Source: Trichococcus shcherbakoviae (GTDB taxonomy: Bacteria; Bacillota; Bacilli; Lactobacillales; Aerococcaceae). Taken from it: a stretch of DNA of 64,000 nucleotides. Shown one piece after another: positions 15,448-62,100 of the stretch. The notes under the pieces are model-generated. The model worked only from the letters and a program-made list of their open reading frames with translations, was not told the DNA's origin and searched no databases. The translations under genes were made by a program, and so were the position numbers. Numbering within the stretch: position 1 is the stretch's first letter; each line of letters opens with the position of its first letter. The stretch lies in the NCBI RefSeq assembly GCF_963666195.1, contig NZ_OY762653.1:2530501-2594500 (forward strand), written 5' to 3'.

Positions 15448-15957
15448 ATGACCAACCATATCGTACTATTTGAACCGCAGATCCCTGCGAATACAGGCAA
15501 TATCGCGCGCACTTGTGCTGCAACCAATACAACTTTACATCTGATCGAACCTTTGGGCTTTTCAACCGATGATAAGCAGCTGAAACGTGCCGGACTCGAT
15601 TATTGGCATGATGTCAACATCATCCATCATGCAGATCTGGCGGCATTCCTCGACTATCTGGGCGACCGCCAGCTGTATCTGATCACAAAGTTCGCCGACC
15701 GCATCTACAGCGAGGCCGACTTCACGAAGGATGAGGATGTCTTCTTCATCTTCGGCAAAGAGACGACCGGATTGCCTGAAACTTTCATGCAGGAAAACGC
15801 TGAAAAATGCCTGCGCATTCCGATGAATGATGAGCATGTGCGTTCCCTGAACCTTTCGAACACAGCCTGCATGATCGTCTATGAGGCATTGCGTCAGCAA
15901 GGTTTCCCCAATCTGGAATTGACCCACACCTATGAGAACGACAAGTTGAAGGGTTGA
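15448..15957 (+). CDS. trmL: tRNA (cytidine(34)-2'-O)-methyltransferase TrmL
   Basis: A 169-residue SPOUT-fold enzyme that 2'-O-methylates the wobble base of tRNA-Leu isoacceptors (the CAA species is encoded at 3880). The trefoil-knot motifs [10 protein letters not shown] (about 107-116), [17 protein letters not shown] (about 130-146) and the N-terminal [12 protein letters not shown] are clear. AAAGGAG precedes the ATG. Second gene of the queG operon, followed by a terminator. Confidence 0.95.
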
Positions 15958-15984
15958 ACGAACCCGTTCCGCTTTTAAACCGTT

Positions 15985-21913: not shown

Positions 21914-22020
21914 AGTGCCTAAGCTGATATTACGTCACGGCCAAAGAGCGGCCGTTCACGTAATATCCTCTTAGTGCGCGATTTCTACCCGGGATTCATC
22001 ACGCTCTGCGTAGACGCGTT
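21914..22020. repeat. Family A nested-hairpin element, copy A1 (subtype I)
   Basis: CTAAG (21919)/CTTAG (21970), ATATTACGT (21927)/ACGTAATAT (21958) and CGGCC (21938)/GGCCG (21950) nest around the loop AAAGAGC. The right flank GCGCGATTTCTACCCGGGAT then TCATCACGCTCTGCG is identical to that of copy A2, but the left outer arm is missing, so the copy looks 5'-truncated. Confidence 0.8.
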
Positions 22021-22143
22021 CTGAATCCCGGAAATCTGTGCCTAAGCTGACTACCACACACGGACAAAGAGCGTCCGCTTTGTGTTAGTCCTCTTAGTGC
22101 GCGATTTCTACCCGGGATTCATCACGCTCTGCGTAGACGCGTT
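22021..22143. repeat. Family A nested-hairpin element, copy A2 (subtype I)
   Basis: Complete unit. Outer stem GAATCCCGG (22023)/CCGGGATTC (22112), then AAATC/GATTT, CTAAG/CTTAG, GACT/AGTC, ACACA/TGTGT and CGGAC/GTCCG around the loop AAAGAGC. The innermost stems differ from copy A1 in both arms so that pairing is kept. It ends TCATCACGCTCTGCG. Confidence 0.85.
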
Positions 22144-22256
22144 CGAAAAGTCAGCTCCCATTAACGTTTCACATCCCCCGAAGTGAACAAAAGAGGTTCA
22201 CTTCGGGGGATGCTCCAACGTACGGGGAGCTAAACGACTTTTCTCACGCTCTGATA
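22144..22256. repeat. Family A nested-hairpin element, copy A3 (subtype II)
   Basis: GAAAAGTC (22145)/GACTTTTC (22236), AGCTCCC (22153)/GGGAGCT (22225), and a perfect 17-bp inner stem (22072+100, i.e. 22172-22188 with 22196-22212) around the loop AAAAGAG. The right side carries CTCCAACGTACGG and CTAAAC, shared with copy A5 at 41.4 kb, and ends CTCACGCTCTG. Confidence 0.85.
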
Positions 22257-22341
22257 AGAACGTATTTTCGTGTTTTTTGATGGCTTTATTGTTCGGATAA
22301 TGTTATAGTTTATGTAATATGCGAATGGAAGGAATGGGATA

Positions 22342-22692: not shown

Positions 22693-22867
22693 GACTTAAT
22701 TTTTGACGATAAGCTGTGACCATTTCCGAAAGAATGGCCGGATGACAGATAGGGACAGGATTCAACGCATTGCCTATCAATGCCATCCAACGTTCTTCAT
22801 CCGATATTTGGAGGAAATGGCGCAGTTTTTTTGATGCTTCTAGGAACATATAAAGATTTTTAGAATC

Positions 22868-23119
22868 AAAAGTGCATCACCGTAGGTGTTTTACAGGATT
22901 GCAAAATGTTTCATGCATCCAATATAGATGGCTAGCTTCACGGGTAAGCCCTTCGGAAATTAGATAAATCGTGCCTATTGCGCTCTACGATGCTCAGTTG
23001 CATGGGAGTCTTTGGGATTCATCCCTTAGACTCCCAGTACAAGGTGACCGTAGGGAACGTTGCATGGCTCGATTTCCTAAATTTCTTTCAGGGCTGAACG
23101 AACCCGTTCAGCTTTTCTT
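22868..23119. repeat. Family B long palindromic element, copy B1
   Basis: Left arm 22934-22975 (AGCTTCACGGGTAAGCCCTT, then CGGAAATTAGATAAATCGTGCC split here as 22954-22975) pairs with right arm 23066-23112. The apex (22976-23065) holds the conserved box ATTGCGCTCTACGATGCTCA and an extra hairpin GGGAGTCT/AGACTCCC flanked by GTTGCATGG repeats. A 5' part (22868-22920) starts AAAAGTGCATCACC and is shared with the copy at 34.2 kb. It sits between yheA and yhaO; the rest of the gap (22693-22867) shows only a weak minus-strand frame. Confidence 0.85.
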
Positions 23120-34194: not shown

Positions 34195-34226
34195 AGCTGG
34201 GGCTTTCGTCCCGGCTCCTTCTTTTC
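34195..34226 (+). terminator. Terminator downstream of ecsB
   Basis: AGCTGGG (34195-34201) pairs with CCCGGCT (34210-34216), followed by CCTTCTTTT. It lies about 170 nt past the ecsB stop; I see nothing else recognisable in 34021-34190. Confidence 0.65.
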
Positions 34227-34248
34227 AATGATATAAATTTATCAAATT

Positions 34249-34437
34249 AAAAGTGCATCACCTTTGGTGCTTCACAAGTTTGCAAAATATTTCATGCACC
34301 TAAAAAGATGTCTAGCGGTCCAAGCCTGCCTCTCGGAAATTAGATAAATCTGACCCATTGCGCTCTGCGATGCTCATTCAGGGCCAGATTTCCTAAATTT
34401 CTTTCGAGGCAGAGCGGGCTTGTACCGCTTTTCAAAA
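34249..34437. repeat. Family B long palindromic element, copy B2
   Basis: Starts AAAAGTGCATCACC like B1. Left arm from AGCGGTCCAAGCCTGCCTC (34313-34331) continues with the conserved CGGAAATTAGATAAATC; the apex carries ATTGCGCTCTGCGATGCTCA; the right arm returns as GATTTCCTAAATTTCTTTC then GAGGCAG and ending GTACCGCT. The outer stem and the stem under the apex differ from B1 in both arms, and pairing is preserved (AAATCTGACCC with GGGCCAGATTT, against AAATCGTGCC with its partner in other copies). Confidence 0.85.
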
Positions 34438-36057: not shown

Positions 36058-36098
36058 GTGTTTCTTTCGAGGCAGAGCGGGCTTGTATCGCATTTCTT
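36058..36098. repeat. Fragment of a family B element (right arm only)
   Basis: From TTTCTTTCGAGGCAGAGCGG onward the sequence nearly equals the right end of copy B2 (34399-34432) for more than 30 bases, with GTATCGC in place of GTACCGC. No left arm is near. It lies between the trmB terminator and the ytzB stop codon. Confidence 0.75.
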
Positions 36099-49321: not shown

Positions 49322-49497
49322 CACGATTTCCTAAATTGTCATGACTCTTGCGATTTCAATCGCTTAGTCCTGTCATCAGGCCATCCAACTGGTCTCGTAG
49401 TGAGGCCCTCTGATGTCGCACTGTGACATCAGAGTACTTGACCGTTTAGGTCACAGTGTTTCCTTAATCAGGGCTAAGCGAACCCGTTCAGCTTTTC
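49322..49497. repeat. Rearranged family B element after dnaI
   Basis: Starts with GCACGATTTCCTAAATT and ends with CAGGGCTAAGCGAACCCGTT then CAGCTTTTCTT, both right-arm sequences of family B. Between them is different material with its own hairpins: a perfect CTCTGATGTC/GACATCAGAG (about 49409 and 49427), CACTGTGAC/GTCACAGTG, and GCGATT/AATCGC. No terminator for dnaI was found other than these hairpins. Confidence 0.7.
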
Positions 49498-49544: not shown

Positions 49545-49817
49545 AGATGAAACGAAAGACAAATCGATGAGAAAGACACCGATGGATGAACTGATTTTTA
49601 GCGAGGGATGGCTTGGTGGAACATCCTAATCAATCATGTATCGACCCCTTTCGAGAGATTCCCTGAAACTGCAGTAGGGGGAAACGGTACGCTCGTTATC
49701 GCGTTCAAGTAAGGATGAGACAGAATCTTAAGCGGATGCCTGTCGCACTCTTTGAATTTGGGTGGAACCACGTAGACACGTCCCATTTCCGGCACAAGCT
49801 GGGGATGGGCTTTTTTT
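49545..49817 (+). promoter_or_regulatory. T-box leader RNA of thrS
   Basis: A tRNA-sensing leader: uncharged tRNA-Thr would stabilise the antiterminator and allow thrS transcription. The T-box sequence GGGTGGAACCACG lies at 49760-49772, followed by a terminator (CCCAT 49782/ATGGG 49805, then seven T to 49817). The upstream stem I region includes AGTAGGGGGAAACGGTACG (49673-49691) with ACG triplets that could be the threonine specifier; the exact codon was not resolved. Confidence 0.88.
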
Positions 49818-49848
49818 ATTGCCTTTTTTAACATGAATGAATTTACAC

Positions 49849-49996
49849 AAAAGTTCATTCATCTAAAAAAGTTGTCCAGCTTCACGGGTTAGCCCTTCGG
49901 AAATTAGATAAATCGTACCTATTGCGCTCTACGATGCTCAGTCGGCACGATTTCCTAAATTTCTTTCAGGGCTGTACGAACCCGTTCAGCATTTCT
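49849..49996. repeat. Family B long palindromic element, copy B3, inside the thrS leader
   Basis: Compact copy. Left arm 49878-49919 (starting AGCTTCACGGGTTAGCCCTT) pairs with right arm 49944-49990 (ending GAACCCGTTCAGC); the apex is the conserved TATTGCGCTCTACGATGCTC alone. The part before the left arm (from AAAAGTTCATTC) is a shortened version of the 5' region of B1 and B2. It lies after the T-box terminator and before the thrS Shine-Dalgarno. Confidence 0.87.
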
Positions 49997-52056: not shown

Positions 52057-52107
52057 GAAGGCCCGGAACATGGCAGTTTGTGTTCCGGGCCTTCATTTTC
52101 TTATATA
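52057..52107 (+). terminator. Terminator of thrS
   Basis: A perfect 14-bp stem GAAGGCCCGGAACA/TGTTCCGGGCCTTC with a 10-nt loop, then ATTTTCTTATATATTTT. Confidence 0.9.
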
Positions 52108-52134
52108 TTTTGCTTGATAGGGGATGAAGAGTTT

Positions 52135-61884: not shown

Positions 61885-62100
61885 CTGTAGGGCTGAACAA
61901 CCCGTTCAGCATTTCTTGGCCAGCTTCACGGGTTAGCCCTTCGGAAAAGATAAAGGAACCCCTTGTCTCTACGAGCCAAGGATACTATTCGACTAACCTG
62001 CTGACGCAGGAAGTCTCTCAGCATATTGCGCTCTACGATGCTCATACGGTATGATTTCCTAAATTTCTTTCAGGGCTGAACAACCCGTTCAGCATTTCTG
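61885..62100. repeat. Family B long palindromic element, copy B4, with a duplicated right end
   Basis: Begins with a stray right end (AGGGCTGAACAACCCGTTC then AGCATTTCTT, 61889-61917), then a full copy: left arm from AGCTTCACGGGTTAGCCCTT (61922), an altered inner part with hairpins CCTTG/CAAGG and CCTG/CAGG, the conserved TATTGCGCTCTACGATGCTC (62023-62043), and the right arm from GATTTCCTAAATTTCTTTC (62052) ending CCCGTTCAGC. It fills the space between the convergent lplA and trpS genes. Confidence 0.85.

Follow-up and report, generated by a model that had tools for sequence, protein, structure and literature searches.

A modular hairpin repeat of Trichococcus, probably a non-autonomous mobile DNA element, and its relatives across the order

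The EFAR elements were reportedly described by Venditti et al. in 2007 as miniature insertion sequences with variable modules, two adjacent stem-loops and hairpin-forming targets. EFAR is named as a MITE of Enterococci in one paper (PMC3733652), and another describes Efa-1, an intergenic family of E. faecalis of 163 bp with 65 copies and a pair of adjacent stem-loops (PMC2267715). The BOX repeat of Streptococcus pneumoniae consists of boxA, boxB and boxC modules, of which boxB varies, and has been reported with inverted ends and duplications; the same source describes SPRITE of S. pneumoniae as a hairpin followed by a T-rich end (PMC3049150). YPAL/RU-2 of Yersinia is described as an element of about 168 bp with internal inverted repeats, targets in or close to dyad symmetry, both empty and filled sites, and duplications of 3-26 bp (PMC2229807).

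Here we report a hairpin element from a window of 64,000 nucleotides of the genome of Trichococcus shcherbakoviae (all positions are those of this whole stretch), which is probably a mobile DNA element that is non-autonomous and belongs with the modular hairpin repeats. As far as descriptions can be compared, BOX appears to be the nearest well-described kind, and EFAR, as reportedly described, seems nearer still; the present element has, like EFAR and Efa-1, a 5' hairpin module next to a long hairpin, and it may form one family with EFAR. With BOX it shares a modular, stem-loop-forming and intergenic character, and BOX is also over-represented between convergent genes (PMC3049150); by description it is set apart from BOX in that it varies by alternative arms and three insert modules. 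It shares with SPRITE a hairpin with a T-rich end after it and differs in having conserved boxes and modules and in its tendency to follow terminators. By description it resembles YPAL/RU-2 in size, internal inverted repeats, targets of dyad symmetry and the existence of empty and filled sites, and differs from it in the duplications given for Yersinia. For the present element we document below relatives across the order, covariation, placement at stop codons and the swapping of modules at fixed loci. No description of it was found among the literature matches listed for Trichococcus repeats or similar elements, and literal sequences gave no match.

The original prediction placed four copies at 22.9, 34.3, 49.9 and 62.0 kb, and all were recovered, at 22.84-23.12, 34.23-34.43, 49.83-50.00 and 61.92-62.10 kb. 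Of its three shared boxes, box 2 and box 3 occur in all four copies, with chance expectations of 0 and 0.05 in the window, but box 1 is exact in only three; taken alone and allowing up to three mismatches, box 1 reaches three matches in 10 of 100 shuffles. All copies are on the plus strand. Copy B1 (22841..23117; 136.1 bits with the covariance model R1) has a 5' module with the left-end motif TAGGAACATATAAAG and a small hairpin, followed by a long hairpin at 22929-23117, and its extra apex insert is real and corresponds to module d (22998-23063). Copy B2 (34226..34433; 117.2 bits) consists of a 5' module and a long hairpin at 34309-34433 with type-2 arms. Copy B3 (49830..49995; 149.9 bits) has type-1 arms in its long hairpin (49873-49995) and a 5' hairpin that is altered, and is flanked by a terminator on one side and a gene with threonyl-tRNA synthetase domains on the other. 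Copy B4 (61917..62098; 68.8 bits) carries module c on the left of its long hairpin (61943-62023) and lacks box 1 because this module of about 80 bases, which reads GGAAAAGATAAAGGAACCCC... at the place of box 1, replaces the left inner arm; its right end adjoins the stop codon of a minus-strand tRNA synthetase gene (PF00579). The arm swap between ACGGGTT/AACCCGT and AGCGGTCC/GTACCGCT is as predicted.

The 5' part had been overlooked, so that B1 starts near 22841 and B2 near 34226, and so had further copies elsewhere in the genome and three incomplete ones in the window, all on the plus strand. A lone 3' arm of an older copy (61889..61915; HMM E 0.0095) lies directly before B4, and in the genome G069 the B4 locus holds the lone 3' arm only. 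At 36061..36096 there is a deletion remnant with only the 3' arm, for which fuller copies exist at the same site in L034 (T. pasteurii; also in G066) and L046. The partial copy at 49327..49497, made of module e and the 3' arm, lies just past a gene with a DnaI_N domain (R1, 17.8 bits for 49386-49497). An empty site at 52096..52112 of the plus strand is filled in the genomes G071 and G061. A weak 3'-arm match at 15939-15977, at the end of an open frame (R1, 15.6 bits, E 0.018; HMM E 0.0006 at 15950-15976), may be an old remnant or due to chance. Two further features of the window were observed. A second repeat family at 21917-22260 has its own hairpins (GTGCCTAAGCTGA...CACGCTCTGCGTAGACGCG, two units) and matches many places in other Trichococcus genomes. 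Upstream of thrS, the stretch 49700-49810 contains GGGTGGAACCACG and a terminator hairpin and by its motif resembles a T-box leader; it had no Rfam listing at the gathering score, and B3 is placed between it and thrS.

The compact hairpin unit, as seen at 49873..49995 (the same unit is at 22929-23117 and 34309-34433), is composed of an outer stem, a 5-nt bulge on the 3' arm, a second stem, fixed boxes with an AT/C internal loop, a variable inner stem and a fixed apex. In many copies it is preceded by a 5' part with a TAGGAAA-TATAAAAT-like motif, a small hairpin (GTGCATCACC...GGTG) and the linker GATGGCTAGC, which other copies lack; the 3' end of the long hairpin is GCTTTTC. A resemblance between the ends, TAGGAAA and TTTTCTTA, is weak and was judged by eye; it is the internal hairpin that forms the inverted repeat. 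Variation involves two kinds of outer arm and three inserts, namely c (left, about 80 bases), d (apex, 66 bases) and e (right, 83 to 140 bases). The long closing stem that had been predicted is real in both copies that were folded (B2 and B3), with z = -4.6 to -6.0 on both strands and with DNA as well as RNA parameters. By RNAalifold energies, the body and module c fold better on the minus strand and modules d and e on the plus strand, and since these preferences are mixed, they decide nothing between the strands. At fixed loci with closely related flanks, a compact inner part in one species is exchanged for a long one in another (L089/L171, with a flank identity of 99.3-99.6%, L083/L062 and L106/L030). 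The inner part of B1 likewise has a CGTGCC stem and module d in its own genome and a compact, fully paired CTGTCC/GGACAG in G062.

The element is short and non-coding and has many intergenic copies, although a crude caller assigned 7 of 120 copies, among them the Pontiella match mentioned below, to an open frame. In the genome of the window, 33 exact occurrences of the core box were counted, and 42 when up to two mismatches are allowed, and the core is present in all 13 genomes of the genus, with 7-47 copies each; in the rest of the family, one of 63 genomes had a core match, a single one with two mismatches. The best 80 of at least 120 stretches in a scan of named genomes comprised 66 from Trichococcus, 13 from Sedimentibacter sp. 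SX930 and one from Pontiella, which is probably a chance match. The Sedimentibacter record (MUZD01) is 98.5-99.5% identical to the genome of the window at L052, L059, L063, L068 and L077 and 91% identical at L054, and judging from these identities it is probably a mislabelled Trichococcus. None of 92 left modules (window and loci L001-L150) belonged to a copy with an internal gene, and the 3' arm lies within 500 bp of the left module in all but one of them, the exception, L017, having lost the arm.

The hairpin element is mobile, as shown by empty orthologous sites, which had been suggested as a check on the original prediction: B1, B2 and B3 each have orthologous sites in other genomes that hold no copy. 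G068 and G062 carry B1, and its site is empty in seven other genomes. B2 is shared by its own genome with G066 and G067 and is absent in G068, which is of the same species, and in G060, G061, G069, G063 and L044, and B3 is present in G067 and absent in G068, G060, G061, G062 and G069. Altogether, 41 filled/empty or module-swap pairs were found across genomes, several of them representing one site. At the 52.1 kb site, the window reads TTTTCTTATATATTTTG and G071 reads TTTTCTTATA / TAGGAATTT...GCTTTTC / TTATATATTTTG (slashes mark the junctions), which is explained either by a duplication of TTAT(A) or by an element that ends in TTAT and makes no duplication. The copies at L008 and at the 52.1 kb site have TTAT on either side; at B1 and B2 no duplication is clear, and about 10-30 bases distinguish these filled sites from the empty ones, without a clean junction.

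Particular features are enriched at both ends of the insertions. Among 105 distinct copies, 20 have a recognisable left-end motif, and in 12 of the 20 the preceding 60 nt contain a terminator-like hairpin and a T-run, compared with 110 of 3000 random positions, which were not confined to intergenic DNA; this matches the hairpin-forming target reportedly described for EFAR. At the right end, 52 of 94 distinct flanks have a reverse-strand stop codon between -2 and +11 nt of GCTTTT that closes an open frame of 120 codons or more (55 of 94 for at least 70 codons), compared with 3.4% (at least 70 codons: 7.5%) of 4-mer-matched positions and 1.4% (3.5%) of random positions, again not confined to intergenic DNA. 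The right-hand gene points towards the element in 81 of 120 cases and away from it in 36, with three undecided; orthologues are counted repeatedly here, and the 36 include the Pontiella match. Among the 105 distinct right flanks, GCTTTT is followed by C in 98, by CTTA in 32 and by CTTAT in 24.

Relatives were searched throughout the order with the model R1, which was built from 29 of 57 compact copies and used at a cutoff of E ≤ 0.001 with stricter filters and 14 candidates scored per genome. Matches were obtained in 57 of 246 genomes and 19 of 64 genera. Two of the 57 genomes are Trichococcus; the other 55, out of 244, include two of the same family (G045 and G052). The genus g38, possibly Enterococcus, has 5 to 111 copies in 21 of its 22 genomes, and six of 18 genomes in the family of G098 have matches. 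In g38 the Trichococcus apex box has not been conserved; the box pair around GATAAA and TTTCCTA is kept and is common to families of the order. Ten of 70 relatives have the left-end motif, and in all ten the right end is TTAT and the left flank is variable. Copies in several genomes are arranged in tandem with a period of about 120 bases, the next unit beginning 3-5 bases after the last; in G052 (L259), the next copy with a left end starts right after the GCTTTTCTTAT of the preceding one. At L232, L253, L256 and L227, in other genera, three to six hairpin units of similar kind likewise follow one another in tandem. In g38, a ribosome-binding site and an ATG follow immediately after the copy or array in eight of the nine loci with a visible right flank, which could reflect a use of these hairpins as mRNA. 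There is no sign of phage or wide plasmid carriage: a phage search gave no match, a plasmid search with two g38-type queries gave no match, and the plasmid records with a copy were 11, all from E. faecium and with one place each.

The covariation of the arms was examined in the 57 compact Trichococcus copies and in the relatives. In the two outer stems of 56 copies (L012 was left out), 131 cells were changed on both sides, compared with 49.4 in shuffled alignments (sd 4.6) and at most 41 in slid ones, but the numbers of two-sided pairs (9 vs 9.5) and of further pair types (13 vs 18.1) did not exceed the shuffles, since the change consists mostly of a single difference that separates two types of arm. 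The excess of two-sided cells in these stems therefore depends largely on the two arm types. The 29 copies with a short inner part had 28 two-sided cells (vs 7.6), five two-sided pairs (vs 2.8; 4 of 500 shuffles as high) and nine pair types (vs 8.0; 160 of 500 shuffles as high). Their inner stem comes in many letter versions with matching partners, with one of its six pairs unpaired in 12 of the 29. A compensated arm change is seen at the B4 locus, which has ACGGGTT/AACCCGT in its own genome and G068 and ACGAGTT/AACTCGT in G060, G062 and G066. Outside Trichococcus, in 64 distinct rows from 40 loci, aligned by fitting to the structure and thus leaning towards it, 33 of 35 pairs change on both sides (25.1 in shuffles), with 450 two-sided cells (vs 137.9, sd 9.7; slid at most 103) and 84 further pair types (vs 69.7), and none of 500 shuffles was as high on any measure. 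Compensatory changes, looked for in copies elsewhere, are thus found order-wide.

Wobble pairs bear on whether the stem is kept as RNA or as DNA. A stem kept as RNA tolerates G.U but not A.C on the sense strand. Among order-wide columns that pair in at least 60% of rows, 1927 cells contained 29 G.U and 32 A.C (12 and 16 with one row per locus). The acceptor stems of 23 tRNAs taken from the same data, used as a control, gave 128 Watson-Crick, 13 G.U, 1 A.C and 19 other pairs in 161 cells; positional acceptor pairs were used and ARAGORN brackets dropped, since the latter contain standard pairs only. This symmetry speaks for a fold-back constraint on DNA or for palindrome correction and not for an RNA of one strand. 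The 57 compact Trichococcus copies had 6 G.U and 46 A.C (4 of the latter in a mostly unpaired position); by itself this excess would suggest an RNA on the reverse strand, but it comes from few independent events, and two inner-stem types account for most of it. The original prediction, that the element is a structured RNA or a non-autonomous mobile element, is thus borne out as to mobility, by the empty sites, and gains covariation across the order, but the order-wide count of 29 G.U and 32 A.C does not support selection as RNA. Nor did the hairpin match any Rfam family, which was searched with the window (gathering score), three Trichococcus loci (E ≤ 1) and 19 other loci (E ≤ 0.5).

We consider it improbable that the element is a structured RNA family, in which the hairpin would be selected in a 3' UTR or between cistrons, for example for mRNA stability, and its spread would be secondary. 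The strong order-wide covariation, the right ends at stop codons (52 of 94 flanks), the g38 copies directly before ribosome-binding sites (eight of nine loci) and the A.C excess in Trichococcus, as a reverse-strand RNA would give, are all in its favour, as is a hint that the hairpin changes less between species than the 5' module and the flanks, although the core was ascertained by exact match and module swaps confound the comparison. It is opposed by the symmetric order-wide wobbles, set against 13 G.U and 1 A.C in the tRNA stems, and by the occurrence of copies in both orientations to the right-hand gene (81 vs 36 of 120). Also against it, a promoter scan of two copies gave a promoter-like site in one of them, on the minus strand, with a chance expectation of about 0.5. 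An origin of the covariation without any selection, through template switching during replication that corrects imperfect palindromes and gene conversion that homogenises boxes and swaps modules, is also unlikely, though module swaps at near-identical flanks (L089 and L171, 99.3-99.6%), symmetric order-wide wobbles and boxes nearly identical across copies are what it would produce. Correction would, however, erase the 5-nt bulge, the AT/C loop and the mostly mismatched outer positions, which persist across genera, so that plain palindrome correction is disfavoured by the conserved bulge and internal loop, and the GATAAA/TTTCCTA box pair common to families of the order lies beyond the likely reach of gene conversion.

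A derivation from IS200/IS605-type elements, which would insert 3' of TTA(T) without duplication, carry hairpins at both ends and be moved by a Y1 transposase acting on single-stranded DNA, is again rather doubtful. It would fit the three empty sites that are restored exactly if the element ends in TTA(T) (52.1 kb, L008 and L019), the TTAT ends and variable left flanks of the relatives with the left-end motif (10 of 10) and the Y1 transposase matches in 12 of 13 genomes of the genus. The same junctions are, however, explained by a 4-bp duplication; CTTAT occurs in only 24 of 105 Trichococcus right flanks, which makes such a derivation less likely; and the one IS200-type element with settled ends has different ends. 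Among the 30 of 47 Y1 matches scanned with the HMM (23 with the model), a strong hairpin-module match near a Y1 gene was found only at L282, where the copy lies just outside the IS; weaker matches were at L269 (E 0.027) and L286 (E 0.25), with a fragment at the edge of L270 (E 0.0002). The IS200/IS605-type elements of the genus are therefore not supported as donors of the ends within the 30 of 47 matches examined. At L282 (G071, 1210-1340), the IS200-type element directly follows the 3' end of the hairpin copy, and the IS copies at L281 and L288 follow terminator-like T-runs.

The preferred reading remains that of a non-autonomous mobile DNA element. In the mechanism that we envisage, the long hairpin, with fixed boxes and stems free of set letters, would be what is recognised when the DNA is extruded or single-stranded, and a hypothetical enzyme supplied in trans would join the element ends beyond an intrinsic terminator's T-run or beyond an older copy, whose 3' end is similar. 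Insertion would often take place 3' of a TTA(T)-like site, and as TTA lies on the strand of the element, a neighbouring minus-strand gene would keep its TAA and stay intact. Against this stand the low counts of CTTA (32) and CTTAT (24) in the 105 right flanks and the want of a clean duplication at B1 and B2; a mobilising enzyme with matching ends was found neither among genes inside copies nor among the IS200/IS605-type elements examined. We tentatively suggest that the copies belong to an order-wide class of mobile elements recognised by the shape of a DNA hairpin, with stems of no set sequence, fixed boxes and bulges read by the enzyme, and a hairpin with a T-run as the target, which would lead to tandem stacking. 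It is conceivable, with the same reserve, that such a system represents transposition defined by a DNA fold and not by end sequence; no autonomous partner has been seen so far.

If this reading is true, the finding adds a family of hairpins without a counterpart in Rfam 15 to what 57 of the 246 genomes of an order contain. Strong covariation alone would then be no proof of an RNA, and a count of wobble pairs can separate a constraint on DNA from one on RNA. The copies would provide a natural series in which DNA structure is kept over sequence, complete with empty sites and module swaps, and the movement of modular hairpin repeats such as BOX, EFAR and YPAL would become testable.
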